Positions 1,601 to 61,124 of a stretch of DNA of 64,000 nt are shown in pieces (position 1 is the stretch's first letter; every line of letters starts with the position of its first letter). The notes below the pieces were generated by a model, which was not told the origin of the DNA, ran no database searches, and worked only from the letters and a program-made list of their open reading frames with translations. The position numbers and the translations under genes are program-made. Location: assembly GCF_010389155.1 (NCBI RefSeq), contig NC_057769.1, positions 25,544,735-25,608,734 of the forward strand. The letters are read 5' to 3'. This DNA is from Erigeron canadensis (taxonomy: Eukaryota; Streptophyta; Magnoliopsida; Asterales; Asteraceae).

Positions 1601-2317
1601 GCGAAAAATGTTGTAGGTTTCTCTTTAAGTTTGTAATATTTTTAAATTATGAATAAATTTTTATATAATATTTGTGTTTATTTTATGAATTATATTTCTG
1701 GTGTTATTTATTAAAAGTTTGAAAATAAATATGTTGGAGTGTATTGGAATATATCGGATCTATTGAGTATTGGGTGTGAATTAAGGTAAATGTATTGGAA
1801 AGAAATTTTGTTGATGTCACACTGTATTGGTTAGTATTAGACTAACCCATTAGAGGTGCTCTAATGTCATGGTCAATCCATAATAAATATTCCGTAAATA
1901 TATATATATATGATGAGTTATGAATAGTGACACGTTTAATCAATGAATAAAAAATGAATTGGAATGTCATTTGCCATGCAATACTTAACAAATAAAGTTG
2001 GTACATCTGTGTTGACTGACGAAGTGTTGGCTGGTTATACACGTTTGAGTATAAACCGAAAGGCAGGATACGAGGCAAATACTGAAGAAGGATTTATCAA
2101 TGCGGACTCTTTCACTTTACTCTTTAGAATGATGTCAATTTCATCGAAAGTTTCGCTGCATCAATATTAACATGAGATTGTTAAAGTAGTTGTGAGAGAT
2201 AAAATAAGAAAACGTACTTCAAGATACTACTAATAATATGAGATTTATAACTGCATCAAATTGAATCTAAAACTAGTGAGTTATAAGATAAAACTAAGAC
2301 AGTTGATGACACCGTAA

Positions 2318-3308: not shown

Positions 3309-6300
3309 TTAATCAACTACATACCTGGGTCCAGGTTCTAATAAATAGGTTTCATTGTCGTCTAACAAATTGGAGTCGTCCTCCCTTATAAACTCCTGTA
3401 GGCTTGACATATGCTGGTCAAAGATAACGAAACATTAGGATAATTAAATTTGTATATGGGTTGAAATTCTTATAAGCTAAATTCTCAAATTTATTACATT
3501 AATTAAATCAATCAAAATGCATGGTGTAAATACGATTAAATGATCCACCTTCAATTTAAATAATAGCCTTTTTTTTATAAAAAAAAAAATATCAACCCAC
3601 AACTTGAGACCCGCAGGCCTCAATAGCTTACAAGATCCAATTTAGCTATCATAGTACATAATAATATTGGGGGAATGTTAAGTAAATCATGCGGTCTTAG
3701 GTAAAACATGGGAAATTATGTAAAATTTAGGGAGGGATTGTGTAAAATTCAGGAGGGTTTGTATGTTTATTAAATTCAAAGGTTTAATTTATATTTTTTT
3801 TAACTTGAAAGTACTTAGTAAAGCGGTATTTTCCCAATAATATTTTAATGAACTACTTAATCACAACTTTTTAGCAATAGAATAGAAAAAATTCACAATG
3901 TAACACTTACTTCATTTCTTGCCTCCTGAGAAAGGTCACACTCTTCTTCATATATGTCAAATAACTTATCCAAATGTTTCTGGGTCAAACACTGAAAAGC
4001 AATACAATGTGATCAAATCATGAGTACTATCACATAATTTGTAGGAATTTGGTGTAAGAAAGCAACTCGACGGTACTAGCTTGTTAAATTTGAGTGATAA
4101 TTCTAGGAAGTACTTAAGGGGTGTTTGGTAGGAGGGAATTATAGAGAATGAAAATGTAATAGATAATGGAAATAGTGAGAAAGAGAATGAGTATTTGAAA
4201 AGAAAATGGATTCCGTTGTTTGGTACCCACAGAGAATAAATATATATAAAAATAAAATTTTAAATAATAATATATTTATTACACATAACATCTTAAAAAA
4301 AAAAAAAAAGAATTTCCATTTTCACCCATTCTCTACAATTTGTAGAGAATGGAATAGATTCTCCTTTCCCATTCCCTTTCTTCGTTTCAAACAAACAAAG
4401 GAAGTCTTTCTCATTCCCTTTCTCCCCTTTCCATTTTATTATACCAAACACCCCTGAATGCCATCCACAAGACTATATATGGTCTTCTGGAGCCTAATTC
4501 CAAACCTATATCTATATCAGTGTATTAATTACTCGTAAAAGAGTAGTTACCAAACCTATTAAAGATCATCCCGAACATCACCAAACCACTATATATTTCT
4601 ATCCAAACCACCACGTTTGATTGAATTTTCATTAACTAAAAAACCTTAGAAGTGGGTAAAAGTAGAGACGGTATAATAGAAGCTTCACACTCAACACCCT
4701 TAATAGAGAAGGAAAAAAAAAAAAAAAAAAGAGCCTTACACGGAACTTTGATGGGGATTCATACTCTGACCATATTCCCAGCCTATGAACCATTAGATGC
4801 TGAAAGAAATGTAAACATCAATTGATATACTTTTACACGAACATGAAAAGCATATAAAGCAATGACTCCATGCTTCAACTATATGATTACTTTAGATTGA
4901 AACAAATAAGAACAACATAAAAAAGGTTTTCGTGATTGGCAAAAGGCGCAAACATGACAAGAACTTTTAATCATAAACCAAGTTGGAAGATAACGTACAT
5001 ACAACTCTATGAAGGAAGATGTATGTTCAAGTATTGGAGAATATCGAACTGCATCCTGTAAAATCAGAACCCATGACTCAACCAGCTAGGCTGGATCGGA
5101 TTAATGAGTAGATTAAGGTATAAAAAGATGGGGTTTACATGGAATGCTCCGAAAGATGTTGCGTGTGATTCCCACCACTCTTCCAATGTGAACGTTGTAT
5201 ATCTCATATTGAGATAACGAGAGAAGGTCAAACAATCCGGTTTCAAAAGCATACTATAGATTCAAATGGTTACAAAAGATAAAACTAAGGGAAGAACAGT
5301 ACGAAATTAACGTCAGAATTACTTAAAGTAGATTAAGCAGAGACTACCTATTAAAAAGACGGACATTGATATATTCGAAAAGTCTAGTAAATATCTCCAA
5401 AATGACACTGTGAGGCACCTGATCAAAACCCAATTTTTTGAGATTTTGAGATTAATCAAAAGAAAAAGATTTAGTCATCAATACTTAACATATCAATCAG
5501 GCACCCGTTCAGTGGTTTTCATAACGGGTTTTGCTAATGATAGTCATATAGGTTGTCGTTAACGTGCATAAATAGTTATATTGTCTATCATAATGTGAAA
5601 TATACAAATTTTTAATGTTTTACTAATTTTTTTATGCATGTTAATTAACGACAACCCATATGACATTAGTTAGCATTTTCCATTGATAATGGAAAACATG
5701 TGATCCCTTAAATGTGAATAAGCAAGCTACACATGTTGTCCAAATAGCCCTTAACATGTGCATCTAGAAGAATAGGAACATGATTTGTTTCCGATTCAAA
5801 GATACTAAACCTGAGTTCATCTTTGACGAAATCTGTAGGAATTAATCTTGACTTTAAGGTTACTAAATGGGTTGATTTAATTAGTGCATGGAATAAGAAG
5901 TAGAAGTGGTCAGTCGACATATTGAAGATTTGCATGGAGTTACTTCTATGATTTAATTAGTAGTAGATTTTATTGTTTAGTTTATGGGTAAGTCTATTTG
6001 TTTTAGAATGAGTCATTGTATTGACCGAATCTAGTGGAAATATCCGTTGGTTATTAGCACGTTAGGAAGATATGGTCATGTCCACCATTTCTTTAGGAAA
6101 GTCAGTTGAGTCAGTGGGCTATATATAGCCATCTATGTTTCATTTAGTAATTCGATAGTTGCAAGTTTCTACTGCATTTTTTCTTTACTTGTCCTTCTCT
6201 CCATAATATATTACTATATACACATATTTAGAGTGAGTTGTGAGTGAATCTTGGGCTTAATTTCCAACAAAATCAGTGTACTATTTTTCAATTGGATCGC

Positions 6301-9064
6301 AAATAGATGTAGGAACTGTTTTGTAATTTGTTATATTAATTTTCCTAGCAACTTGTAGAACAATAGAAGGTATAGACTAACTGATATTAACATGTAGAGC
6401 AGTAGAAGGTATAGACATACAAAATTTTCTTCGAGTTGGTTGAGATGATCAGTTAACCAAGTGCTAAGGTCATCAGAATCTTTCGATGCCATTATTGCCT
6501 GAATTTTACAGTTATAAGAAATATTATGGATCCAAGAATCTTCGGTAAATTTGAGAAATCTTGTACAGTCTAGGAATTTGAAAATACCAGAATATGCAAG
6601 TCCAACAGTGATCCAACCTCGTTCTTCAAGCGGTCACTTATGATGCCATACAACTTAACTACATATTCCATTAGTTCCACCTAGAAAAGAACAACGAACA
6701 ATAAAATCACAACCAAAAAGGACCATAAAAGACGAGTATCACACAAATTCTAAGATATTGAAAATAACAAAAGAGATTATAAATCATTACCCCATTATAC
6801 CATTCAAGTTTGGATCTGTAATCTAAATTGTTTAAGAAGTTCAATACCAAGACATTTGCTGACAAATACACCATATACTCTATAGTATGTTTCGTCTGCA
6901 AATAAGTGAACCTTCATTAGAAGTGAAATAACTTGGAAATTGTTTGCTGTTAGGGGTTTTCTAATCTTGAATCACAAATTGTTGCACATCATCCTCGTAA
7001 GGTCAATTATTTCACGTCATATCTAGATAAACTATATTATGCCTCCTTTCGATTTCAGGCTAGAATATGTCACGTCATATCAAAGAAAAGTATTGTCACG
7101 TCCAGTGTTGTAAAACTTGGCCAACTCGGCCGGGAACTTGGGATCAGAATCGGGGTTAAACGGGTCGAGTTGGCTAGAATCGGGTGAAAACTCGGTCAAT
7201 GACTTGGTCGCTTGTAAAACTCGGTCAAACTCGTCTGTATCGGTCAAAAATCGGCTGGATCGTCAAGAATCGGTCAGATCGGGTCAAAACTCGGGTCAAC
7301 ATTGGCCAATTTTTTTTTTTTAATGTACATCCTAAATTGGTTTAAGTTTATGTTTCTAATGAATAAAGTTTAAACTTTGAAGTATTATATTAAAGTTTCT
7401 AAACAAATTATATTTTAAGATTGAAGTATATTCCATATAATTTCAAAAACTATATATTTCCTATATATAAACCTAATCCGGGTTCTCCCCGATTCCGATC
7501 CGAGTTTTTAAAAACTCGTGACTCCCTCCCGCCGATCCGATCCTGAGTCACGAGTTCCCGAACCATGGTCACGTCAGAGACAAGATAATACTAAGTTGCT
7601 ATATTAGAAAAGTAACCCGCAGAAATGGAAGTGGACAAGTTTGCTTCTGAACTACCATAGTATGTGTTTGCATAGTACCTTGACTGCTACATAGAGAATC
7701 TGAATAAGCCGATCAAACAAATCATGACCAAAAGAATGGAAGTGGACAAGATCGTTGTATATGGTGAATGCCATAACAGGTTTGCCATAACTGAATCGAG
7801 TATCACCCATAACACACTTGATAAGGGGAGAATTCATCTGTACCCAACAAGATCTAACATTGACATTAACAATATATACATAATAAATTGATGATAAAGG
7901 GTTATGGCTATTTAACTCCTTAAATTCCAGTAATACCCTGTTCAATAAGTTAACAGCGCATTACAAGTTTCGTTCCTTTCTTTTAACTATACAACGAATG
8001 TCACAGTCTGTTTATAAACCACGTACTGGGACGAAACTTGTAATACTTAAGAAACCACAAAGATCATCTAATGTTCAAGGTAATCAAAAGGGAAGACTTA
8101 CTCGATTATCCAATGCTTTCTTTAATCTTCTGATAATCTCCTTCATTGTCGGGCGTTTCTTTATATCCAAGCTAATACACATATACGCGATGTCTATGAA
8201 TGTGTAAAACGAACTAATTTCAATATTATCTTCTATTTGGGGATCAAGATACGGAACTTCTTGTAATTGATCTCTAATATGGGGATCGATTAACTTCTCT
8301 ACTCCATTCTCACAGAAACGTCGGACCAGATTTAACAGAGGTCTTGGCTGACCATCTCCAATGTCCTTTGCCCGATATGCTAGCACCCCACTTACCATTT
8401 CAAATAGTACAACGCCAAAAGAGTATACATCAGATTCTTTCGTAAGGATGCTGCTTTCATTGTAAAGAGGATCCAGATATACGTTGGTCCCTGCAACGTT
8501 TGTATGGACTTGACTGGGTAGCCGATTATTAAAACCTGACTTTGACAAACCAAAATCACCAACTTTTGCTTCCATACCATCAGCTATCAATATGTTTCCA
8601 CTCTTTACGTCTCTGTGTATTATTCTAGATTGGTGAAGATAATCGAGTCCTCTCGCTGCCCCTAAGCAAATGTTGAGTCGTTCCTCCCATGTAAGGCAAC
8701 GACGCTTGTTGTCGTCTTGAAGGTGATAATCAAGACTTCCATAGGTAGCATACCTGAAAACAAATATCATCTCACCTTCTTCATCACAATAACCAATGAA
8801 AGGAATGATGTTTTTATGCTCCAACTTTGCAATCAACTCAAGCTCATTATAGAACTGCTCCTTTCGTTGGTCATTAACTTTAATGATGTGGCGTTTGATG
8901 GCAGCTGTCCAGCGGTTTTGCCACCTGTCAGAGATTTTTCCTTTGTAGACAATTGCAAATCCACCATATCCGATTTGAGTAGCTGGATCGAAGTCGTTGG
9001 TCTCCTTTTTTATCTCCTCTAGCGGAATTTGTAACTTTTTCAAGTCAACCACCGAGGAAGACAT
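3309..9064 (-). CDS. Chimeric RLK-type kinase fused to a myosin-XI-like DIL (dilute) domain
   Basis: Exon model (minus): 9064-8102, 7837-7679, 6895-6791, 6680-6588, 6498-6421, 5418-5348, 5253-5139, 5055-4999, 4799-4740, 3991-3911, 3413-3309; about 628 residues. All ten junctions are GT-AG and keep frame. Exon 1 is a full cytoplasmic RLK-type kinase: Gly loop GYGGFAIV (32-39), Lys57, HRD (150-152), DFG (170-172). It has no signal peptide or membrane segment. The APE/DPE glutamate is Leu (DPL, 198-200). Exons 2-11 follow the myosin XI globular tail in order: KPVMAFTIYNDL and FDRLIQ (exon 2), LMEYVVKLYGIISDRLKNEV (exon 4), FTRLFEYINVRLFN (exon 6), MLLKPDCLTFS (exon 7), CLTQKHLDKLFDIY (exon 10). 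The family tail binds cargo; a kinase on it would be a cargo-targeted kinase (inference). If intron 1 is retained, a 326-residue kinase ends five codons later at 8084. The start is chosen because MSSS followed by a short linker is usual for these kinases. The last exon and the exon at 5055-4999 are the least certain. Confidence 0.7.
4117..4455. mobile_element. MITE in intron 9 of the kinase-DIL gene
   Basis: Perfect 14-bp terminal inverted repeats AGGGGTGTTTGGTA (4117) and TACCAAACACCCCT (ending 4455) bound a 339-bp AT-rich non-coding element. No convincing target duplication is visible. It lies wholly in the intron between the exons at 4740-4799 and 3911-3991, so it should be spliced out. 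Confidence 0.8.
5526..5681. mobile_element. Foldback MITE in intron 5 of the kinase-DIL gene
   Basis: The outer arms GGTTTTGCTAATGATAGTC and, read from the right, GGAAAATGCTAACTAATG pair. The subterminal block GGTTGTCGTTAA with GCATAAA is also mirrored. The same end motif (GCTAA, then GTTAACGTGCAT) occurs in the elements near 46669 and 49430, so this is one MITE family. Confidence 0.65.
7103..7567. mobile_element. hAT-type MITE in intron 2 of the kinase-DIL gene
   Basis: A perfect 8-bp target duplication GTCACGTC (7095-7102 and 7568-7575) flanks a 465-bp element. Its ends read CAGTGTTGTAAAACTTGG and, from the right, CATGGTTCGGGAACTCG. The interior is a low-complexity run of AACTCGG/GATCGG-like words. 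The open frame at 7117-7323 is a by-product of that composition. Confidence 0.7.
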
Positions 9065-10943: not shown

Positions 10944-12403
10944 TCAGACACTATCATGCCCTGTGTTAGGTGACACACATCTACGCCTGTCCATATAAGT
11001 TCCATACAATGTGGTCGTAAATGATATTATGAACGGCAGAACGAACGAGATGGCCGTAGAAGCAAATAATATGAAGGAATTTGGAGCAATCGCAATCATG
11101 CTAGTAGCATAAGTTAAAGCTAGGGAAGATAATAAAAGATTAAATTCCAACCGCATAGGTAAACCTGCAGTGAGTTCACTGATCATGTGAATTGACAAGA
11201 AGAACCCCAAGGAATTCGCTAACAGAAACACAGTGTAGGCTACCGGGTTATAAGTACCCATTATAGCTTCTCCCGCAGTATGTTTTATAAGGGCAGTTGT
11301 ACCATTCTTGGGAGATGATAATGTGTAATTTCCTGCAGGTGGATCATAATCATCTTGCCAAGTGCCTCCAGGTGGACTAAGTGCAGGCTGATACGTTGCA
11401 GATGTGATAAGTACAAGTATCACGAGAAGGGTATTTCTTACTTTTCTTGGAGAATCTTGTATATTATAATATTTGAAGTAGTTTAAAAATCGTATAGCTG
11501 GAGATGGAGGGTTATCTTCTCGTGTTGTATTTGGTTGATTTGGTGTTTGTTCTAGTGTATATTCAGGATTTGGTAGATTTTCAGTCCTTAGAGCTCCGGC
11601 TTGGATGAGAAGCTCCTCAATTTCACGACCACCGGCTTCACTTCTAGAAGTTTGTAGCATATCAAGAGGAGTTAAACCACTATTGTTTAAGGAATTCATC
11701 TCCAGATATTCCTTGCTAATAGCTTGCCCATTTAGCAGAAAGTCAACCACCTATTAGTAAACATACACGTTACGCAAGAAATCCTTCAAGACAATTGTAT
11801 ATGTGCTTGAAAAAAAAAGTATTCACTTGCCTCATACTGCTTTCTGGAGACGGCAAGGTGCAAGATTGTATTACCATGAATATCCTTGGTATTCAGGAGA
11901 TCTTCTTTGTTAACTTGCTTTAGATGATGTACTAACACTTGTAAAGCTTTGAATTGGTAGTTCTTCACTGCCAGATGAAAGGAAGTCTCACCTTGAGCTG
12001 TCTTGCAGTCGATAGATACCAAACTTGACAGAATCAACTCTCTAATAACTTCAACTTTACCTTTAGCCACAGCCAAATGAAGAGGGACTTTTCTGTCTTT
12101 TCCTTCTATCAAACATAAATCAACATCAACTTTGAGAAACTCCTTTACAATGTTTACATGCCCATATCCAGCAGCTATGTGCAAAGGGCTAAAACCGTCT
12201 TGGTTAAGCTCACTTATGAAATTTTGCCTGAGCTTTACCACTGTTGCTGCAAATTCTAAATGTCCAGCCAAACAAGCAACGTGTAATGGATTTTCACCAC
12301 CCTCCAACGCTCCAGTATGAAGAATAGATGGATTAGATTTGATCTCTTTAAGCAGGTGATCGACATCTCCATTCCATGCAGCCTGTAACAACCTTCCATC
12401 CAT
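10944..12403 (-). CDS. Ankyrin repeat protein with PGG membrane domain (BDA1-like)
   Basis: Two exons, 12403-11831 and 11750-10944, give 459 residues. The N-terminal half carries ankyrin repeats: NPLHVACLAGHL (38-49), SPLHIAAGYGH (72-82), VPLHLAVAKG (107-116), TSFHLAVKN (140-148), TILHLAVSRKQY (179-190), with the last repeat continuing into exon 2 as VVDFLL. The C-terminal half has the PGG-domain start SPRKVRNTLLVI, the PPGG motif (317-320) and about four hydrophobic segments, indicating an integral membrane protein. Family members act in plant immunity and stress signalling; the role here is inferred only. The 80-base intron starts with GC (GAG|GCAAGT) and ends TAATAG. No GT donor nearby preserves frame. 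Without splicing the protein would end at 206 residues. A dead paralogue lies upstream at 13.3-13.9 kb. Confidence 0.88.
11751..11830 (-). other. GC-AG intron of the ankyrin gene
   Basis: The donor is GAG|GCAAGTG at 11831/11830 and the acceptor TAATAG|GTGGTT at 11751/11750. The donor otherwise matches the AG|GTAAGT consensus, as known GC-AG introns do. Joining it restores the ankyrin repeat motif KQYE-VVDFLL exactly. Confidence 0.85.
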
Positions 12404-13284
12404 GGCTCTGTAATAAATTAATCTGTATATACTGTCGAAAAGTTGAAGGTTGAGTTGTTTTTATAAGGAAATAGGTATACCAAATGTGGACCCGTCATCG
12501 TTAAGTCAACAAGTGTAAGTTACGAGGAAACATCAAAGAGTTTATTAACTATTGTTTCGTGTTTTACTATTGGAGGTATTTATGTTGTGATGTAGACGGA
12601 AAACGAGATAAATAATCAAACATGTTGAATTCACAAGAATTCCAAGAACAATTGTTCTAATTTTCGTTGATTCAAAAGAAATACCGATAATCAGGCAATT
12701 TCACACACTAAATACACACTTGTGTATATGAAAAAATGATTTCCATATATTTTATAAGATGGTCATTTCCGTAGGTTTTTAATCACATAAATAGTAGTGC
12801 AAAATTCGAATGGGCCTAAAAGAACAAAGGGACGAAAAGTTATGATGAAATGAAAATCAAAATAACCGAAATGATGCATAAAAACCCCAAAACCTCATAG
12901 AAAATGACGTTTTCCACCGGTCATGTGACTAGTCAAACGCTACTACGCTGAAAACGAAGCCATGTAGCTCGAGTTATGCCCATTTTAATGAGGCAACTTT
13001 AGTTACTCTATCTTTAGCTTCCAAATACACAAGTGCTTGTTCTTCCACACTTGGGCCCACATCATATTGTTACATCTAATCCTGTATAGCCAGAGATCAT
13101 GGTTTTCATGTCTTTGAGCAGGATATGTGGTTATTGTATTAACTTTATTTGTATAGTCTTTCGGCTTTGAAAGATGTATTGTGAGGTGGTTGTTTTAACT
13201 TGATAGATATCATCTGGATATAAAATATCAGTTCTGGTGATTTGAATAAAGGTATCTGAAAGTAAATCTGTAGATTAATATTCA
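12404..13284. other. Ankyrin gene upstream region and unassigned sequence
   Basis: This holds the promoter side of the ankyrin gene and AT-rich non-coding DNA. A stretch around 12590-12990 looks repeat-derived but I could not place its ends. No gene is seen. Confidence 0.4.
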
Positions 13285-33229: not shown

Positions 33230-36200
33230 GAGTTAATTGCAAAAATGGTCCCTGTGGTTTGTACACTTTTGCAAGGGGGGTCCTTATTTGACTTTCTTCG
33301 CAATGGGGGTCCCTATTTTGACTATTTTTCGCAAAAATGGTCCCTTTTGGACGGCTCCGTTAGGAGGAGACGTTAAAGTCATCACGTGATCGGCATGTGC
33401 ATGGGCAGAAAAGTAATAAACCACTCCACTCAGCCTTTTTCACCCCTTTTTATATACCCAAAACCCTAACTTATAAAACAAAAAAATCAATTACCTCTCT
33501 AAAACTCTCTCAAAAATACGATTAACTCAAAAATACGATTTAACTCAAAAATGTCGTGAGTGCTTCGATCGACTGATAAAGAATGGAACGTTGCTTCGAT
33601 ATATGGTGAGTGATTTAGGTTTTCATTTTTTTCAATTATTTATTCAAGTTTTTAATTGACTTTGGATATATAATATATGTATGCGATTGTTTATACTAAA
33701 TTATACATAAATTTCATTTTTTTTTGTAGTTGGATGCACTACTACTTTTTCTTTGAAAATTCATCATGCTGGGTGGTTCACGACGGTTCCAGGGAGGAAA
33801 TACATCAATGGTAAGGTCAATTATGTAGACTCCGTAGATGGAGATGAGTTTTCTGTTCTCGAGCTAGAAGCTATGCTTAAAGAAATAGGCTATGCTTAAA
33901 AAAATTCCAATGTGGAACCAGATAATAATCTTGATTTTGGCCTGCATGCTTTAGCTAGTGACGAGGATGTTAGGAATTTGATTAGCTTTATTGGAAAATC
34001 CAAATCCAAGATTATAGAAGTATACATAGAAAGTTGGAAAACCAATGTGGAGATAACCCCTAGAGTTGTTGTGGATAAGGTACTCGATTGGTTAAGGGAA
34101 ATAGATGATGCCCTAACACAACCTTATGTGCCTGCAAAAAAGATGGGGGTTCGTAAAAGGAAGTTGTTTACTGAAACACTTCAAGGTGAAACACAAACGG
34201 GTATGGGTATTAATGAACTGCAAATTGAAACAACACAGGTTGGGGTAGGTGGAAATGAACCAATTGAATTTGAAACACAGGCTGGGGTGGGTGGAAATGA
34301 ACCAATTGAAGTTGAAACTGTTACAATTTCACCATATATACCAAAGTAGATTGAAACAACTCCCAGGATATGTACAAATGAGGTGAATGAAATACTTAAT
34401 GAAGGTGGTGGGAATGAAATGTTTAATGATGATGTATTCACTGATAATTTTGTCAATGTGGGAGTTCAGAAAGACATTGGTCAGGGTAGTAAAGAAATTG
34501 GGCAGGGTAGTAAAGAAATTGGGCAGGGTAGTGGGATTTATAAGGGGTATGATGCCAGTCATGAGCATGTAGGTAATACACATATTGATGAGCCTGATGA
34601 TGAGGAAGGAGACAATGATGGTGAGGATGATGGTGACAGTGATAACAAGAGTGAAGATTATGACTTTGTAGTTGATGATGAGCATAGAATGGATTTTTAA
34701 GAGATTGATATGACTGACTTTAGCGATAACATAGATGGTGATGTAGAGTGGATATGATCTAAAGAGAATCCAAAGGAGAAGGAGATAGTTGGTGATCCTG
34801 AAAACCTAAATGTTGAGAATCTGGAAAGTGGAACAGATGAGAAAGATGATGCAGTTAGAAAACAAGCCTTGAAAAATTTAAGAAGGGAGCATACCACAAA
34901 TCCTGAAAAAAAAAAGGCACATTTTTATCTTGGGCAAGTGTTTGGGACCAAGGAAGAAATGAAGGACATGGTTACCATGCATGCAATTGAAAGTAGGAGG
35001 CAACTGAAAATTTTAAAAATTGATAAAGCAAGATTCAGGGTGATATGTGAAGATACCATCCCAAAGTTTATTGAGCCCAATGTAGATGGGTTTGAAATGC
35101 AAGAGCAGCCCAACAATAGTGGGCCTAAAATGGAAGAGCAGCCCAATGTGGGTAAAAAAAAACAGACATGGACATTTAGAACTTACAAGCAAATCCACAA
35201 ATGTCGCCAAACAAGAAATTTGAGAAAATGTACTAATGAGTTTTTGGCAAAACAGATTCAAGAGAATTTAAACCCAAAGTCTAAGGTTAAAACAGGCTTT
35301 CTTAGAGATCAACTACAAAAAAAAGTTTGAAATAGGAGTCTCCAAACACAAGATCTACAGGGCTTTTGATAAGGCAAAGGCAAGAATAATGAGTGATTAC
35401 CCACAACAATATGGAATGTTGAAGGACTACATCCTTGAATTACAAGCAAGCAACCCAGACACAACTGTGAAGGTTAACTTTGAACCAAATCATGATCCTA
35501 ATTGTGAGACAAGACAATTTAGAAGAGTATATGTATGTTTGGGTCCATTGAAGGCTGGGTTTAAAGCAGGGAAGAGAGATCTGTTGGGGTTGGATGGTTC
35601 TTTTATGAAGTCTCCTGCTACAGGGATGTTGTTGACTGCAGTAGGTGTAGATCCTAACCATCAAACTGACCCACTTGCTTATGGCATTGTGGAGTCTGAG
35701 AACAGATCTTCATGGACTTGGTTGCATGAATGTCTTGGAGCTGATCTAGACTTGAATCACATGTCAAACTTTACATTCATGAGTGATAGGCAAAAGGTAA
35801 ACAAACTCTGTCTTTTTTAATAAAAACTCTATAATTAATCTTTTAGTTTCATAATGGCATTTAACTTGTATATATGTTTACTATATAGGAATAATACCTA
35901 CAATTGCACAACTATTTCCATGTGATGAGCATAGGTTTTGTGTGAAACACATTTATGACGATATGAAAGGCTCATTTAGGGGACAAGTTTACAAAGACTT
36001 TCTTTGGAAGGCTGCATCAGCACCCACAGTTGCTGAATTTACCAAGGTGATGGATGATTTGAAAAAAAGTCAAAAAAGAAGCTTATGATTGGTTAAAGAA
36101 AATACCACCAAGACATTGGACAAAGTCTCATTTTTCTGGTATGACTATTTACTTTATATTTTTTTGTTTCCTAATATGACTACTTTACTTATAACTATGA

Positions 36201-38565
36201 TTGTTTTCTGTCACTTTACTTTGTATGTTTACTTTGTTTTCTGGTATGACTACTTTACTTTGTATTGTTTTCTGTTACTTTAAAGTATATGTATGTTTTC
36301 TGTTACTTTACTTTGCAATTCTGTTTTCTGTTATGTGTATAGGAAGGGCAAATTGTGACATACTATTGAATAATATGTGTGAGGTATACAATAGGCAGTT
36401 AATTGATGATAGGGAGAAAACAATAATTCTTTGTTTGGAGTTCATTAGAGAGTACAATATGAAGAGACTGGCCAAAGTGCAAAAGGATATTGACAGGAGT
36501 TTTGGGCCTTTAACACCAAGGGCTACTGAAGTGTTTGATGAAATCAAGAAAGAAGCTTCAAAGTATAATGTATGAGTTTTCTTTACATATTACAGTCATT
36601 TACTCATGTAATAATGTCATGAGAAACAAATACTCTTAATTTAACAACTTTTGTTGTACAGGCAACCTTTAATGGAGATAGCAAGTTTGAAGTAGTTGGT
36701 CCATGGATGGATCAACATGTGGTTGATTTAGATAAGAAGACATGTTCATGCAGGAGGTGGGAGTTGACTGGGATGCCATGTAAGCATGTTGTGGCCTTTA
36801 TATTCAATACTGCAGACAATGAAGGTACCATACAAAGCCCAGAGTCATTTGTTAATCATGTTTATTGGCTGCAAACTTGGAAAAGAATGTATAGTTTTAA
36901 GATTAATCCAGTTAGAGGAAGACTGCATTGGCCTAAGTCTAAATGGCTCATAACAATTACACCACCCAAGCATAAGAATCCAATTGGAAGACCTAAGAAG
37001 AAGAGAAGGCAGAGTGCTGTTGATCTACAAATAATTAAGGAAGACAGGATATCAAGGGCCGGTGCAAAGCTTAAGTGTGGAATTTGCAAAACTGATGGTC
37101 ACAACAAGAGAACATGTCCTAAGAAGCCCATAACTTCAAAGAATGGTGGTTCCGGGTGGTGGTAAAAAGACAACTTCAACTTCCCAAGCTAGTGGGTCTC
37201 AAGCTGGTGGATCTCAAGCTGCTTCTCAAGCTGCTTCTTCTCAAGCTATTTAGTTTGTCACTTAAACTGTTATGCCACTTAAACATTAGATTGTGTTTTG
37301 CTGTTAAAAATGCTGCCTTTTTGATATTATGATTGTGTTAAGCAGCTATCTTTTGGCATGTATTTGCAATACTTCGAATATTATCTTTTGGTATGTAATA
37401 GCCAACAATCTTGGAAATTATCTTTTGGTATCTTTTGTGTTCAATTTTAATGCTTTTTTGTGTAAATCTTTGGTAGTTGAGTTTTAATTGCAGGAAATTT
37501 GTGTCAATGTTGGTACATTTCCTGCAGAAAATGTTACATATTTCATTCAATTCCTATGCAAAGTTGGTATATTCATTTCCTGTAGAAAATCTGTGTTGGC
37601 ATATTCATTGCATTTCATTCAATTCCTATGAAAGTTGGTAATGACACAAAACTGCATAAGCCATTCAATTCAATTGCAAGAACTTTTTCAAATGTCAAAG
37701 TAATGACATAAAACACCATTTTCCATTGTAATTTAATTCTCAAAACTGCACAAACCAGTCAATTGCCACAACAATGAGTAAACAAAACTACACAAACCAT
37801 TCTGTTTCCCATAACTTTTGAGTTTGTTACAACACTTACATAATTTTGCAAGCAAATCAACCTAAGAAAATAACCCATACAATAAAAAACACCCAACTTA
37901 TCACCAACATTTTCTTGTATCTTTTTGCTTGATTTTCATTTGTTAGAGCAATTTCTTCTTGCTTGTTCAAGATTGGCAACAGCCTAGGAATAATTGTAAT
38001 AGCTCTTGCACACATTGGTGGATCATGCCATGTAATAAACCCACAACTTGATCCCTATTACATGTCAAACTCTTACCTTTGAAAAAATTGAACAAAATTA
38101 TAAACTTGAACAAAATTAGATGTAAAACTCATATCTTTTTACCACAACAAAAAAACCTTCTTTCGCGATTATTACATGTCCAAGAGGTTCAAATAACAGA
38201 AGGAGAACCACATCTGCACATCACCATTCTTTGAATTTGAAGATTTTTATGTTAATTTTTGAATTAGGGTTAGAGGGAGAATATATTTTTAATTGGGGGA
38301 AGATAATATGTGTATTTTAGAGTTTATTAGGTATAAAAATGGGTGAAAAAGGCTGAGTGGGGCGGATGGGGTGGTTTATTACTTTTGTGCCCATGCACAT
38401 GCCGATCACGTGATGACTTTAACGTGTCCTCCTAACGGAGCCGTCCAAAAAGAACCATTTTTGCGAAAAATAGTCAAAATAGGGACCCCCATTGCGAAGA
38501 AAGTCAAATAGAGACCCCCCTTGCGAAAGTATACAAACCACAAGGACCATTTTTGCAATTAACTC
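33230..38565 (+). mobile_element. Mutator-like element (MULE), 5.3 kb, with long TIRs
   Basis: Terminal inverted repeats of about 220 bp (33230-33452 and 38333-38565) start GAGTTAATTGCAAAAATGG on both sides and differ at only a few positions. The 9-bp flanks TAAATTTTA (33221-33229) and TAAACTTTA (38566-38574) are a target duplication with one mismatch. The interior carries a transposase gene on the plus strand (33738-37265). A TATA-like TTTTTATATACCC and AAACCCTAA occur near the inner end of the left repeat (33448-33470), a likely transposase promoter. Confidence 0.93.
33738..37265 (+). pseudogene. MULE transposase, broken by stops and frameshifts
   Basis: In order: an N-terminal PB1-like region (about 33738-33990), an acidic linker (34383-34740), a MuDR-type DNA-binding region (34869-35330), the catalytic core (35389-36575), a SWIM zinc finger CSCRRWELTGMPCKH and a CCHC knuckle CGICKTDGHNKRTC (36707-37165). 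Catalytic candidates are Asp in LLGLDGSF, Asp in FMSDRQK and Glu in NNMCEVYNRQL, with EHRFCVKH between. Introns with GT-AG ends fit at 35797-35889, 36140-36342 and 36571-36660. Damage: in-frame stops at about 33897, 34347, 34698 and 34755; frameshifts at the A-runs near 35318 and 36062; and one near 37150 that separates a Ser/Gln/Ala-rich tail. As it stands it cannot make a full transposase. Confidence 0.88.
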
Positions 38566-47470: not shown

Positions 47471-50400
47471 ATGGCTTGTTTAAACATGCTTAAAATGGTT
47501 GGTTTTAGCTTTATTATTCATACACAATCTTTTAATAACTTGTCATTTTCTTTTTCCCAAAAATGGAAGTTATATAAGTTTCTAGCATGAAAACACGTTC
47601 TTTATCAAGTAGTGTACATTAGCACTATAATATATTGAATCCAACACTTTTAGATGGTTGGTTAAATTACTATATATATAAGAAAATTGGGAATGTAGTA
47701 GTCTTAGTTTTTTTGTTTATTTTACCTAGCTAACTCGATATTAATTAATCTTCGTTATTGTTGAACTCTAGAGAAAAGTCGACGAGAAGGTGGCTAAAAA
47801 GAACGAGGAGTGCACTCTTGATGGATCAGTCGATAGGAAAGGCCAACCAGCTATTCGTGCAAGAACTGGATCATGGTTTGCTGCGATCCTCATACTCGGT
47901 ATGCTTTGGTGTGTTAAACCGAAAGTTTTCTTAAAATGCAACGAATTCAACACGATAGAAATCAAAATGACAATAAACCTTTTATTGAAATATCTTTATT
48001 TTTGTCATGTGTTCACTCTTCCCACATAAATATCATATATGTAGTTCATGGCATGTTCTAACCTATTAATTAAAACCACAAGTACTTTAATTTATATATC
48101 ACTTTAATATATAAACATGTACATATGCATACCTAACATATGTTTTTGTAACGTGACGTGCCTATGATAACAGTGAACCAAGGGCTAGCCACACTAGCAT
48201 TTTTCGGAGTAGGTGTGAACTTGGTTCTGTTTCTGACTAGAGTCATGGGTCAAGACAATGCCGAAGCGGCAAACAACGTTAGTAAATGGACCGGAACTGT
48301 CTACCTCTTTTCGCTCTTAGGCGCCTTCCTCAGTGATTCATATTGGGGACGTTACAAAACATGTGCCATCTTCCAGGCTATTTTTGTTGTGGTAAGTGCT
48401 CAAGAATCTACACTATGAGTCTATGATCACACTCATATATTACAGATTACAGAGACGGTATCAGAAAAAATTTTAATAGAGGGCAAAAATAATAAAGTCC
48501 ATGGAAAAATATCCATATACTCGCTCGTGTGTATATATATAATTTTATAATATTATATTCTACAAAAATTTGATTGGTTTCTTTTACTATACTCTGCATG
48601 GATCTATATATTGCATGCTAAGTTAGAGTTTTATGGGCTGATTTTCTGTTTTAGATCAACCTTCATAAAAGTACACTATATGTTTTCCAATTAATTAATA
48701 TGGTTAAGTTTATTTTCCAGGGATTAATATCATTATCACTCTCAACATACATATTCTTGGTAAAACCCGAGGGATGCGGCGATGAAAGTACTCCATGTGG
48801 GAAGCACTCGAGCTTTGCGATGGCTATGTTTTATGTATCAATATATCTAATTGCTCTTGGAAATGGAGGATATCAACCAAATATAGCCACATTTGGTGCT
48901 GACCAGTTTGATGAGGATCACCCAAATGAAGGACATGGGAAAGTGTCATTCTTTAGCTACTTTTACTTGGCACTAAATCTTGGATCACTTTTTTCAAACA
49001 CTATATTGGGGTATTTTGAAGATAAAGGGGTGTGGGCATTGGGGTTTTGGGCATCTGCGGGTTCTGCAATTGTCGCGTTGATCTTGTTTCTTGTCGGTAC
49101 ACCACGGTATAGACATTTTGAACCCACTGGGAATCCTTTGTCTAGATTTTGCCAAGTTATGGTTGCTTCAATCAGGAAATGGAAAGTTGAGATCCCTTCT
49201 GATGGTGATGAGTTATATGAAACTGATGGTAAAGAAAATCCCAATAATGGCAGCAGAAATATTCTTCATACCAATGGATTCAAGTATGTCATTGTTTACT
49301 AATTAATTAAACCACTTAAATTAATTACTTAATTATTTAAAATGAACCTTAAAAGGGAATATCATTTAATCTAAATATAAAAATATCAAGTGTTCAGGTT
49401 TAGAATATATTATAAATTTTACAAAAAATTTTAATTACAGCCATAAGAGCTGTCATTAACGTGCATACAAATTGTATTTTTCGTATCAAAAGTTCACTTT
49501 TAAAGCAATTTATGCACCTAAGTGACAAGGCCCAAACTTTATAAATAATGATTCTTTTTCTTAATAACTTTCCTGCAATATATTAACGATTTTTATGAAA
49601 CCAGGTTCTTGGACAGAGCGGCCGTCATCACTTCAAAGGAGAACTCGGTTGAGATTAATGATATCGATAACAAAAGCCCATGGCGCCTTTGTACAGTGAC
49701 CCAAGTCGAAGAAGTAAAATGCATTCTAAGACTCCTTCCAATTTGGCTATGCACAATACTCTATTCCGTAGTATTCACCCAAATGGCGTCTTTGTTTGTC
49801 GAACAAGGAGCTGCCATGAAAACAAACATTGCAAACTTCCACATTCCTCCAGCAAGCATGTCAAGCTTTGACATCCTTAGTGTTGCAGCATTTATTTTCA
49901 TTTACAGACGAGTGCTTGACCCGTTAGTGGCCCGTGTCAAAAAATCACCTTGTCCAAAAGGACTAACCGAGCTTCAAAGAATGGGAGTTGGCCTTGTGAT
50001 AGCCATATTAGCAATGATAGTAGCAGGCACTGTAGAACACTTCAGATTAAAATATAAGGACAACGATTGCACCAATTGTGAAGGGTCGTCGAGCACTTTG
50101 AGTATTTTTTGGCAAGTACCACAATACGTGCTTATTGGAGCTTCAGAGGTTTTTATGTATGTCGGACAACTGGAGTTCTTTAATGGGCAAGCGCCCGACG
50201 GGCTAAAAAGCTTTGGAAGCGCGCTATGTATGACATCAATTTCGCTTGGGAACTATGTTAGTAGTCTGCTTGTGACAATTGTGATGAAGATTTCTAAAGG
50301 TGACAATATGCCTGGATGGATTCCTGGAAATCTGAACAAGGGTCATTTGGACAACTTTTATTACTTATTAGCTGTTTTGACAAGTGCTGATTTTGTGGTC

Positions 50401-50481
50401 TACTTGTTAGTGGCAAATTGGTATAAGTACATCAAGTTTGAAGGGAGAAGTGAAAAATTAGAAGGCTGCCAACATGTTTGA
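47471..50481 (+). CDS. NRT1/PTR FAMILY 7-type transporter (NPF7.3/NRT1.5-like)
   Basis: Five exons: 47471-47497, 47772-47898, 48174-48391, 48721-49283, 49605-50481. All junctions are GT-AG and in phase, giving 603 residues with about twelve membrane helices. Recognised blocks: GSVDRKGQPAIRA, NVSKWTGTVYLFSLLGAFL, SDSYWGRYKTCAIFQ, GGYQPNIATFGADQFDE, FSYFYLALNLGSLFSNT, GASEVFMYVGQLEFF, MPGWIPGNLNKGHLD. This is closest to NPF7 in my memory. Where most NPF members have an ExxE[R/K] proton-coupling motif in helix 1, this one has VNQGLATLAFFG (52-63), as in NPF7.3. NPF7.3 works in root xylem loading of nitrate and potassium at the plasma membrane, so that is the inferred role. The tiny first exon (MACLNMLKM) is chosen because family members start MACL. 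Intron 4 contains a partial MITE near 49430-49530. A copy of the 3' end lies at 61122. Confidence 0.92.
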
Positions 50482-58300: not shown

Positions 58301-61124
58301 TATTATTTATCTTGGCTTTGTCTTTGAATGTGGCCACTATTGGACTTTTGTAGATGGGGTGGCGGCAGGGAGGACAAGTACTTTGCGCGAATGGGCAAAA
58401 ATGTTATTTCAGTTTATGAGACAGAGACCTTCAGTCTTATTGACAAGAAGTCCATTAAAGTTGAGAATGTTATGGACTTCAGCTGGTCTCCGACTGATCC
58501 TATTTTTGCAATTTTTGTTCCTGAACTTGGTGGCGGAAATCAACCTGCTAGAGTAAGTTCAAATGTATTATTTAACCTGTATAACAAATCACATTTGCAA
58601 CATTTGTGTTGAATCAGTAATATAAAGGAACTAATAAACTTTTTTAGAAGTTTCAAACATTAGTATTCTTAGAATAATGCTTTACTTATATGTCTTGTAG
58701 GTGAGTCTTTTCCAAATCCCAAGCAAAGAAGAGCTGAGACAGAAAAATCTTTTTTCTGTCAGTGACTGCAAAATGTATTGGCAAAGCAGTGGAGAGTACC
58801 TTGCAGTTAAAGTTGACCGTTACACAAAAACCAAGAAAAGCACATATACCGGCTTTGAGCTTTTCAGAATTAAAGAGCGTGACATTCCTATCGAGGTTTT
58901 TGAACTTGATAACAAGAATGACAAGGTCATCTCATTTGCTTGGGAGCCAAAGGGACATAGGTTTGCAGTTATTCATGGTGATAATCCACGTCCAGATGTT
59001 AGTTTCTATTCTGTGAAGGGTGGGAAGGTGGCAAAGCTCACAACTCTCAAGCAAAAGCAAGCAAACGCTCTCTATTGGTCTCCGGATGGCCGTTTTGTTA
59101 TTCTGGCTGGATTGAAGGGATTTAATGGACAGTTGGAATTCTATAGTGTGGACGAGCTTGAAACTATGGCAACTGCTGAGCATTTCATGGCAACTGACAT
59201 AGAATGGGATCCTACCGGGAGGTATTTTAAACAAGTTTGATAACATCTTTGCTTATTAAAATACTTTTTAATGGGTAAATATTGAATGCATGTTTTAAGC
59301 CAATTTTTTTCATGCAATATGGAACTCGTTCCCGCCTATAATAGCAGTCGGTTTGTTCTATAATACGGGGTTCGGGAAGAGATGTTATACGTGGCAAAGT
59401 GGGCGGGTAGGGTCGTAAGAACTGGTCCTTTTTTAATCAGGTTACTTTTAGGTATGGGTCCCGTCTGCCCAACTTGAAACACTGTTTATCCAATGTTAGT
59501 TTAACTTATGATCATGGAACTAGAAAATCTTGAATGACAATCTATTTTTCAGACAACCAAGTCAAAGAGGTTTTATGCTTTATAAAACACACTGGGCATC
59601 TTTTGTATCGCTTGACCTTTTTATACTACGTTGAATATAGCAGCGTTGTAGGGGTTAGCGGGCCTCAGGCAAAATAGCGGTACCTCTATTATCGGTGCCA
59701 TTTTACCAATATCAGTTGGTGTTATAGCGGCCCAAATTGCGGTTGTATAGCTTATTTTTGGCCCAAACTCAAATACAACATAATAAACACTAATTTTTGC
59801 AAGTATTAACACTAGTGTTTCACATATTGACACTTTTATGCTTGACTTTTGATTTGTTATTAGATATATGTATAAGTTAGTGTATATCAGTATCTTACCG
59901 CTATCTCACCGATATCTCAAGTATCGCTTCATGACCGATATATGGTTCTGGACTGTGTGAAGATAAAACAGTACCCCAATCAGCCATGCATGAACAAATT
60001 CGTCGAATTATAGACCTTTAGAAATATAGAGCTTAGCCCCAGTACAGTTAGAATAAATGACTGGTTTCGTGTGAAAACATGTCTGTTGCCTTAGTAGATT
60101 AATTTTCTTTTGCCGTTTCTGTGAATAGGTTTGTTGCAACATCAGTCACCTCAGTGGATCAAATGGAAAATGGATTCCAGATATGGTCTTTCAATGGCAA
60201 GCAACTCTACCGAATTCTAAAGGATCATTTCTTCCAGGTACTCTGGCAAATTTTACATTAATTAGTTAGTTCTGCAAGTTCAGATCAGTTCATAAGCTGT
60301 CACACCTTCAGGATTAGTGCTTTCTTGGCTTATGTACAGAGTTCCTGAGCTCCAGTAAGATGGAGATATGTATTTCTATTTCTTGAAGTCGTTTTTTCGG
60401 TTGCGTTTTCTCATTTAAAGTTTGTTCCCATCATAGATACAGTGGAAACAATGTATATAAGCAACAATCTTTTACTGATTTACAGATTACAGATTTAAAT
60501 GTTTAGATACCATGGAAAAATACAGAATTTTAACTCTACACATGGATCTTCATGACATATGAATTCAACCCAAGACCCTGATACAGACTACAGATCAAGA
60601 CATTAGGAATTAATTTGGGTATAGTGGGTCTATGGTAACGGGTTAAAAGACAATCTGGTAGTGCAAGTCAACATTAGTTCGGTGTTAAAAGTTAAATTAT
60701 GTGTCAAATATGGTTGCAAAAACATATACTTGTTATAGATATTTAGTTTTATTGTATAAAATCACCAACCACTGATTAATTATTGCAGTTCTTGTGGAGG
60801 CCAAGACCACCATCTTTCTTGAGCCCCGAGAAAGAGGAAGAAATCGCAAAGAACCTGAAGAAGTACAGTAAAAAGTATGATGTCCAGGATCAAGATATCT
60901 CGGTATTGTTGAGTGAGCAGGATCGAGAAAAGAGGAAGCAGTTGAAGGACGAATGGGAGAGGTGGGTCAACGAATGGATAATATATCGTGGAGATGGGAA
61001 GATGGAGAGACAAATGTTGAGAGATGGTGAAGCCAGTGATGTGGAAGAAGAATACGAGGCTAAAGAAGTGGAAGCCGAAGAATTGTTGGACGTATCTGAA
61101 GAAATCATCCCAGATGCTGCCTAA
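55328..61124 (+). CDS. eIF3B: Eukaryotic translation initiation factor 3 subunit B
   Basis: Eleven exons: 55328-55434, 56299-56539, 56646-56792, 57537-57665, 57749-57877, 57971-58054, 58136-58260, 58354-58552, 58701-59221, 60129-60237, 60789-61124. All are GT-AG and in phase, giving 708 residues, the expected plant length. eIF3b is a core scaffold of eIF3 that helps recruit the 43S complex to mRNA in the cytoplasm. Visible: acidic N terminus, RRM beginning SIIIVDNLPVVPKEKF (about 55) with RGYCFIEY, then a WD40-type propeller (FVQWSPLGTYLATVHRQG, VMDFSWSPTDPIFAIF, ALYWSPDGRFVILAG, DIEWDPTGR), then FLWRPRPPSFLSPEKEEEI and a charged coiled-coil C terminus (LLSEQDREKRKQLKDEW). The frame is intact. 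The stop codon lies exactly at the junction with a duplicated NPF fragment, so the native 3' UTR has probably been replaced. Confidence 0.96.
55683..56100. mobile_element. MITE in eIF3B intron 1
   Basis: Inverted ends CTTGGTTTTAA (55683) and TTTTAAAACCAAG (ending 56100) bound 418 bp. Subterminal GCGCTAGGC/AGGCGC words and GCGCTTCC...GTGCGCC words mirror each other. It is wholly intronic. No target duplication is evident. Confidence 0.65.
59222..60128 (+). other. eIF3B intron 9, repeat-bearing
   Basis: This 907-base intron contains ATAATAGC/TATAGCGG words mirrored at about 59335-59370 and 59630-59760, perhaps a decayed foldback element. The 70-codon minus frame at 59621-59833 is not a gene. 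Confidence 0.4.

Follow-up and report, generated by a model that had tools for sequence, protein, structure and literature searches.

The window analysed herein is a stretch of 64,000 nucleotides of Erigeron canadensis (C9:25544735-25608734; positions below are those of the window unless a contig is named). On its minus strand lies a gene of 12 exons in which a protein kinase is joined to the tail of a myosin, the spliced model predicting a protein of 663 aa. Its parts are given below, where GTD denotes the globular tail, E values are those of a blind scan of the window, P0001 and P0046 are Erigeron proteins from the databases, L005 is an Erigeron myosin-6-like gene, and copy A is a tandem paralogue.

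8102..9064, minus strand: exon 1, the complete kinase (321 aa), ending in a phase-0 donor (GTAAGT)
7838..8101, minus strand: intron 1 (264 nt), the fusion junction, common to P0001 and P0046
7679..7837, minus strand: exon 2, the first GTD block (53 aa); E 7.6e-14, also in P0001
6791..6895, minus strand: exon 3, tail; based on P0001 and copy A
6588..6680, minus strand: exon 4, tail, lacking the first part of the matching myosin exon; E 1.5e-6, also in P0001
6421..6498, minus strand: exon 5, tail; based on P0001 and copy A
6257..6280, minus strand: predicted alternative short last exon (YTDFVGN and a stop), found after exon 5 in the public model P0001
5348..5418, minus strand: exon 6 (71 nt, phase 0 to 2), equal in length to its L005 counterpart; the Pfam DIL match begins here; E 5.3e-6
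5139..5253, minus strand: exon 7, with a phase-2 start; E only 3.3; based on L005 phases and copy A
4999..5055, minus strand: exon 8 (57 nt), equal in length to its L005 counterpart; based on phases and copy A
4740..4799, minus strand: exon 9; based on exon lengths and phases relative to L005, and on copy A
3911..3991, minus strand: exon 10 (81 nt), equal in length to its L005 counterpart; based on phases and copy A
3325..3413, minus strand: exon 11 (phase 0 to 2), with a corrected end at 3325 and the donor GTATGT
2035..2155, minus strand: exon 12, the terminal exon, ending in SVFASYPAFRFILKRV and a stop; E 0.3, with a paralogue exon 85% identical to it

Elsewhere in the window, the following features were noted.

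10944-12460, minus strand: open frames with ankyrin repeats and a PGG domain, adjoining the kinase-tail gene and probably forming one gene
34758-37165, plus strand: a Mutator-like transposase in pieces, with MuDR DNA-binding, MULE and SWIM domains
48655-50481, plus strand: exons of a PTR2/POT family transporter
58701-59240, plus strand: an eIF2A domain in an open frame

A first-pass annotation, made from the letters of this DNA alone, had described a complete kinase exon that continues through a phase-0 donor and the next usable acceptor into ten tail exons, with an open frame and GT-AG at every junction. The kinase exon (9064-8102) is complete by profile (Pfam Pkinase, E 3.6e-42), the donor at 8102 and the acceptor at 7837 are both present in the DNA, and the open frame and the GT-AG boundaries hold throughout. 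The fusion junction and the tail exons of that chain therefore stand, but its 3' end had to be redrawn: exon 11 ends at 3325 rather than 3309, the last residues of the earlier model (RYVVD and a stop) being a read-through of the exon 11 donor, and exon 12 had been missed. The latter was first located by comparison with lettuce relatives; its phase fits, and it is backed by the paralogue exon. A phase-2 intron precedes the terminal exon in three of the four modelled Erigeron myosin genes (L005, L006 and L008), and the same exon-modelling script found no terminal exon in the fourth, L007. Intron 1 holds four in-frame stops, so that its retention would yield a protein ending as a kinase alone.

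A profile of 394 positions, built from 13 Lactuca and Centaurea kinase-DIL tails, gave 142 bits for the 12-exon model and 146 bits for the tail alone, versus 4.3 bits for the best of 500 shuffles; the Erigeron model covers positions 7-80 and 138-393 of this profile. The blind scan, which took in every stop-to-stop fragment of 15 aa or more on both strands of the whole window (2,800 in total) and used no exon calls, returned exons 2, 4, 6 and 12 as its top four matches, in order and on one strand (E values as listed), followed by an unrelated plus-strand fragment with an E value of 0.4. Since exon 12 is hardly set apart from that fragment by the scan, its proof is the paralogue. Exons 3, 5 and 8-11 were not recovered by the blind scan of the window; exons 3 and 5 are supported by P0001, and exons 7-11 by their lengths, their phases and the paralogue. 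From its base composition, the tail should contain about 23 stops and none is present, a weak observation by itself because the exons were picked for openness.

P0001 (UniRef/nr), which is 100% identical to the window gene over the aligned part, is the public model of this gene. It begins inside the kinase (MIFVFRYATYG...), crosses the 8102/7837 junction, continues through exon 5 and ends in the short alternative exon, so that exons 6-12 lie outside the public model. The second Erigeron protein, P0046, has the kinase-tail join at the same point and shares 65% identity with P0001 across 311 residues. Exon 2 opens with an ATG that is not conserved as a start; it is ACG in copy A, and P0046 has no methionine there. 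A tail-only query recovered, among 684 candidates, only P0001 and missed P0046, and it was the full-length query that revealed the family. The in-frame fusion of a kinase to a myosin tail, as the first-pass annotation had proposed, is real: it is borne out by P0001, by a complete tandem paralogue, and by Lactuca and Centaurea proteins of the same build.

As judged from its sequence, the tail consists of GTD exons from a myosin-6-type myosin XI gene (XI-2 being the myosin-6 of Arabidopsis), without motor, neck or coiled coil. The 307-aa tail of the 11-exon model matches the Pfam DIL domain (PF01843) with an E value of 6.8e-10 and 39.5 bits, above the gathering score of 24, and matches 7kfl, the solved tail of Arabidopsis myosin-17, with an E value of 8.8e-20. 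Across the window and 200 kb beyond its low end, two motor-containing queries (P0173 and P0142) matched tail exons only, and no myosin motor was found. The tail exons of L005 measure 171, 144, 189, 126, 71, 100, 57, 57, 81 and 83 nt plus a terminal exon, and exons 2-11 of the fusion 159, 105, 93, 78, 71, 115, 57, 60, 81 and 89 nt, likewise with a terminal exon. Splice phases are equal at all 10 tail junctions, including the phase-2 introns before exons 7 and 12; exons 6, 8 and 10 have the same length in both genes, and the length differences of the remaining seven (exons 2-5, 7, 9 and 11) are multiples of 3. The L005 exon that matches exon 2 also follows a phase-0 intron. By the same script, L008 has this exon pattern with one exon of 80 instead of 83 nt, L006 has it except for one displaced junction, and L007 is less clean than the other Erigeron myosins. 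Because the tail retains the splice phases of a myosin gene, it would have been acquired as genomic DNA; a retrocopy would be intronless, and an intron-bearing tail fits a kinase gene that captured a genomic myosin segment. The fusion looks to have been made by exon capture at the phase-0 myosin intron preceding the GTD, and would represent a clear case of this process.

The tail has diverged strongly since. None of its exons exceeds about 55% identity to the tails of the resident myosins with which it was compared, and about 57 profile positions are absent around the exon 3/4 border. Conserved columns are kept at 24 of 40 positions in exon 2, 18 of 25 in exon 4 and 12 of 18 in exon 6, and at 8 of 28 in exon 7, 1 of 10 in exon 9 and 2 of 11 in exon 10. 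When a lettuce tail was used as the query against proteins of about 409-1300 aa, a Sesamum 'Myosin-17' at 44% identity ranked first among true myosins, after which came proteins at 55-57%, several of them named myosin-6.

The kinase in exon 1 is the only one in the protein, which thus falls outside the tandem kinases (at least two kinase domains). It retains G, G, K, E, H, R, D, N, D, F and G at the positions examined and is probably functional, to judge from these residues, so that the fusion protein appears to carry a single active kinase. Its closest relatives of solved structure are Pto and FERONIA, the best match by sequence being tomato Pto (2qkw and 3hgk, E 2e-57), solved in complexes with AvrPto and AvrPtoB. 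The predicted start of the protein, MSSSVVDLKKLQIPLEE, looks cytosolic by eye. The nearest kinases among the matches listed include many tandem kinases with two or three kinase domains. About 49 proteins among the matches listed have three kinases, nearly all of them from Asteraceae, with the catalytic residues usually retained in the third kinase and usually not in the first two.

The catalytic lysine, the HRD aspartate and the DFG aspartate were counted in 259 of 264 kinase pieces, gaps being scored as absent and P0001 and pieces of 200 residues or fewer being excluded. Each of the 15 tail-adjacent kinases has all three residues, as do the 3 kinases that precede a tail-adjacent one, and four of the 15 (P0020, P0025, P0039 and P0109) deviate at other motif positions. 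Among DIL-less proteins from the same search, those with three kinases have the three residues together in 6 of 49 of their first kinases, in 12 of 47 of their second and in 38 of 48 of their third; the figures are 7 of 42 and 29 of 41 for the first and second kinases of double-kinase proteins, and 10 of 14 for single-kinase proteins.

The first-pass annotation knew of no comparable plant protein, and among the papers listed by full-text literature searches no title or abstract start likewise described a kinase-myosin tail fusion. The uniqueness thereby implied does not hold, as the gene belongs to a multi-copy family, some members of which are annotated 'myosin-6'. A search of related plants had been proposed, and the architecture of a kinase and a DIL tail is indeed found in Lactuca and Centaurea. 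By profile, the DIL tail is present in 15 of the 120 matches listed (of 7,891), P0001 among them, although 13 of these 15 proteins had themselves been used to build the tail profile; the precomputed Pfam annotation places PF01843 in 11 of the 120 listed. Members among the matches listed come from Lactuca saligna, L. sativa, L. serriola and L. virosa, from Centaurea solstitialis, and from Erigeron (two proteins). Three of the 15 (P0020, P0025 and P0039) carry two kinases before the tail. The junction lies at the same place in the Lactuca, Centaurea and Erigeron proteins. Lettuce members bear database names such as 'myosin-6' and 'myosin-14-like', and records that give such kinases the name 'myosin-6' would be corrected. 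Erigeron belongs to the Asteroideae, and Lactuca and Centaurea to two other subfamilies of the Asteraceae; on this placement the fusion would be old within the family, as it looks to be.

In a tree of tails, a branch with support of 98/93 splits all fusions, together with P0154 of Cichorium, from 28 other myosins, and the window gene and P0046 pair at 100/100. The fusions stand beside myosins of Artemisia, Tanacetum and Ambrosia rather than beside 7kfl, with several long branches. Two label changes are needed on this tree, the tail-only P0154 nesting among the fusions. In a tree of kinases, the tail-adjacent kinases need 6 label changes, versus a mean of 17.6 when labels are shuffled. A single fusion event is not established by these trees (2 changes for the tail, 6 for the kinase), both of which are weakened by their long branches. 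P0154 (Cichorium intybus, 411 aa), which groups with the lettuce fusions, may be a split annotation of a fusion gene.

Kinase and tail do not diverge at the same pace in every pair. In 6 between-subgroup pairs out of 12 lettuce pairs compared, the kinases are 67-72% and the tails 44-54% identical, versus 86% for the myosin tails of cotton and Ambrosia, in keeping with the earlier remark that this tail is far more diverged than in true myosins. One more lettuce pair has 71% identity in the kinase and 62% in the tail, P0095 and P0096 have 93% and 76%, and P0097 and P0098 have 93% and 92%. On the contrary, the tails are more alike (74-78%) than the kinases (65-68%) in three pairs among P0109, P0025 and P0039, and the Erigeron pair is 66% identical in the kinase and 70% in the tail, the latter over exons 2-3 only.

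Two further copies lie on the same strand as the window gene, in the 200 kb that adjoin the window at its low end.

C9:25505790-25504822, same strand as the window gene: kinase of copy A, whose terminal exon ends at 25479427
C9:25468772-25467801, same strand as the window gene: kinase of copy B, the gene of P0046

The kinases of these two paralogues are 63-68% identical to that of exon 1. Copy A has all 12 exons, 10 of them identical in length to those of the window gene, and its frame is complete at 666 aa. Its intron 10 spans 20 kb (C9:25500940-25480868), versus 0.5 kb in the window gene, perhaps because of an insertion. Copy B has an exon 3 that is four bases shorter and out of phase, where its public model stops; its exons 4, 6-8, 10 and 11 are still recognisable, and exons 5, 9 and 12 are ambiguous. 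Searching the genome in six frames with the tail as the query gave a list of 30 places, of which 23 lie in the cluster and 7 elsewhere. At five of these seven (C7, C9:6.03 Mb, C5, C9:28.3 Mb and C3:43.6 Mb) myosin exons lie upstream and no further fusion was found; the other two are weaker matches on C2 (E 0.02 and 0.04). As candidates for extra fusions, L001-L004 (extended as L005-L008) and L029-L032 were rejected, since myosin exons precede their tails.

The ratio dN/dS was estimated by a Nei-Gojobori script for the single pair of the window gene and copy A, with ranges from 500 bootstraps. It is 0.73 (0.51-1.09) for the kinase, 0.65 (0.45-0.98) for the whole tail, 0.99 (0.58-1.99) for exons 2-5, 0.50 (0.30-0.83) for exons 6-12, 0.84 (0.41-1.99) for exons 8-11 and 0.21 (0.05-0.67) for exon 12. 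These values thus indicate constraint for the tail overall and for exons 6-12; exons 2-5 and exons 8-11, taken by themselves, do not show it, and the estimates for the kinase and for exons 2-5 are compatible with relaxation.

The structure model of P0001 was rejected as too poor (mean pLDDT 51). That of a lettuce relative, P0096, has a mean pLDDT of 69, with tail blocks mostly at 76-93 except for the linker, and with much of the kinase below 50. Its best structural match is the cargo-binding domain of MyoXIk (XI-K; 7kfl_A), with a Foldseek E value of 1.3e-23, a TM score of 0.73 by target length and an rmsd of 6.7, followed in order by FERONIA, myosin V tails and Pto.

What might such a protein do? 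We give about an even chance to the reading that it belongs, with its one kinase, to a family of kinase fusions of the Asteraceae, in which the tail serves as a bait or sensor of the immune type. A cytosolic kinase would carry the captured myosin XI tail as an integrated decoy; the tail would sense pathogen proteins, or the state of myosin-dependent traffic, and its engagement would alter the activity of the kinase and so trigger defence signalling. Myosins XI are said to matter for penetration resistance to fungi. The tandem cluster, the divergent lettuce tails, the match to Pto and the tandem-kinase relatives together suggest, by analogy, a protein of this type. The catalytic residues of the kinase are kept while the tail is strongly diverged, and the gene is tandemly duplicated; since this combination of a preserved kinase, a motor-less diverged tail and tandem duplication recurs in kinase fusion proteins, a bait or sensor is favoured over a kinase targeted to cargo. 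Counting against divergence of the immune type are the three closely related lettuce pairs and the Erigeron pair in which the tails are as alike as the kinases or more so. A narrower proposal, that these are dedicated intracellular immune kinases of the Asteraceae with a myosin XI tail as bait, is put forward tentatively. If it is true, the pathogens of Asteraceae have effectors that bind to the tails of myosin XI, and the differences among the tails of lettuce and horseweed copies are the trace of an arms race. The fusion would also mark myosin XI as a candidate target of pathogens, and might be a sign that they attack the transport system of the plant.

The tail might instead bind MyoB-type receptors or other partners of myosin XI and so place an active kinase on vesicles or organelles, as the first-pass annotation had supposed, where it would phosphorylate receptors, myosins or cargo. 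The fold predicted for P0096, which resembles the cargo-binding domain of XI-K, and the conserved columns kept in exons 2, 4 and 6 speak for this, as does the binding of cargo receptors by myosin GTDs reported in passages of PMC8153422; the missing 57 or so profile positions, the few conserved columns in exons 7, 9 and 10, and tail differences between copies too wide for a conserved adaptor speak against it. We regard this main rival as plausible, but less likely than a bait or sensor. It is quite improbable that the motor-less tail acts as a dominant-negative regulator, competing for cargo or docking on a motor, with the kinase tuning the competition. Overexpressed free GTDs of myosins XI do slow the movement of P-bodies, but the effect of the XI-2 GTD is the weakest (both from passages of PMC8153422), and the low per-exon identity of the window tail to resident myosins argues against efficient competition.

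Two further explanations deny the complete tail a function. The product could be limited to the kinase and the first part of the tail, exons 6-12 being relics; P0001 ends at the alternative exon (6280-6257) and P0046 at exon 3, as this would require, but exons 6-12 are open in both the window gene and copy A and have the low dN/dS given above, lowest in exon 12, and we regard a truncated product as the sole one as improbable. That gene prediction has joined chance neighbours, or a decaying pseudogene, is very improbable indeed. The broken frame of copy B and the lack of demonstrated selection on exons 2-5 might be taken that way, yet the junction lies at the same place in three genera, a complete paralogue stands in tandem with constrained exons 6-12, and none of the expected stops occurs in the tail, although its exons were chosen open.

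Several known systems bear on the favoured reading of a bait or sensor. Like a myosin XI (L005 or 7kfl), the window protein has a globular tail with a DIL domain and the same order of blocks, and its splice phases are those of L005; unlike a myosin, it has a strongly diverged tail, and a kinase where the motor and upstream exons, of which none were found, would stand. Pto is the best solved-structure match of its kinase by sequence; Pto is not known to carry a tail domain, and its guard is the NLR Prf. The Asteraceae tandem kinases are its closest relatives by sequence among the matches listed, the window protein differing in that it joins one kinase to a myosin tail. These tandem kinases probably belong to the CrRLK1L-1 expansion, as two match names and the similarity to FERONIA suggest; in sunflower, this subfamily is expanded to 335 members, of which 67 contain several kinase domains (from passages of PMC11646777). 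In wheat, kinase fusion proteins are resistance proteins with a proposed integrated-decoy model, and none of the Triticeae fusions in the passages of PMC10260397 from which this is taken carries a myosin tail, as the Asteraceae fusion does; Pm4 directly binds and phosphorylates an effector, according to part of PMC12830362. The likeness to the Triticeae proteins Sr43, Pm4, Lr9, Snn3 and Yr36, as the source passages present them, lies in an apparently active kinase and an unrelated domain within one gene, here in one open frame, and in repeated fusions. The Triticeae fusions differ in having proven disease phenotypes, and we know of no phenotype for the Asteraceae fusion. The number of resistance genes that encode kinase fusion proteins is growing, most of those known being from wheat and related species, and the multi-copy fusion of lettuce, Centaurea and horseweed would extend this class to the daisy family.
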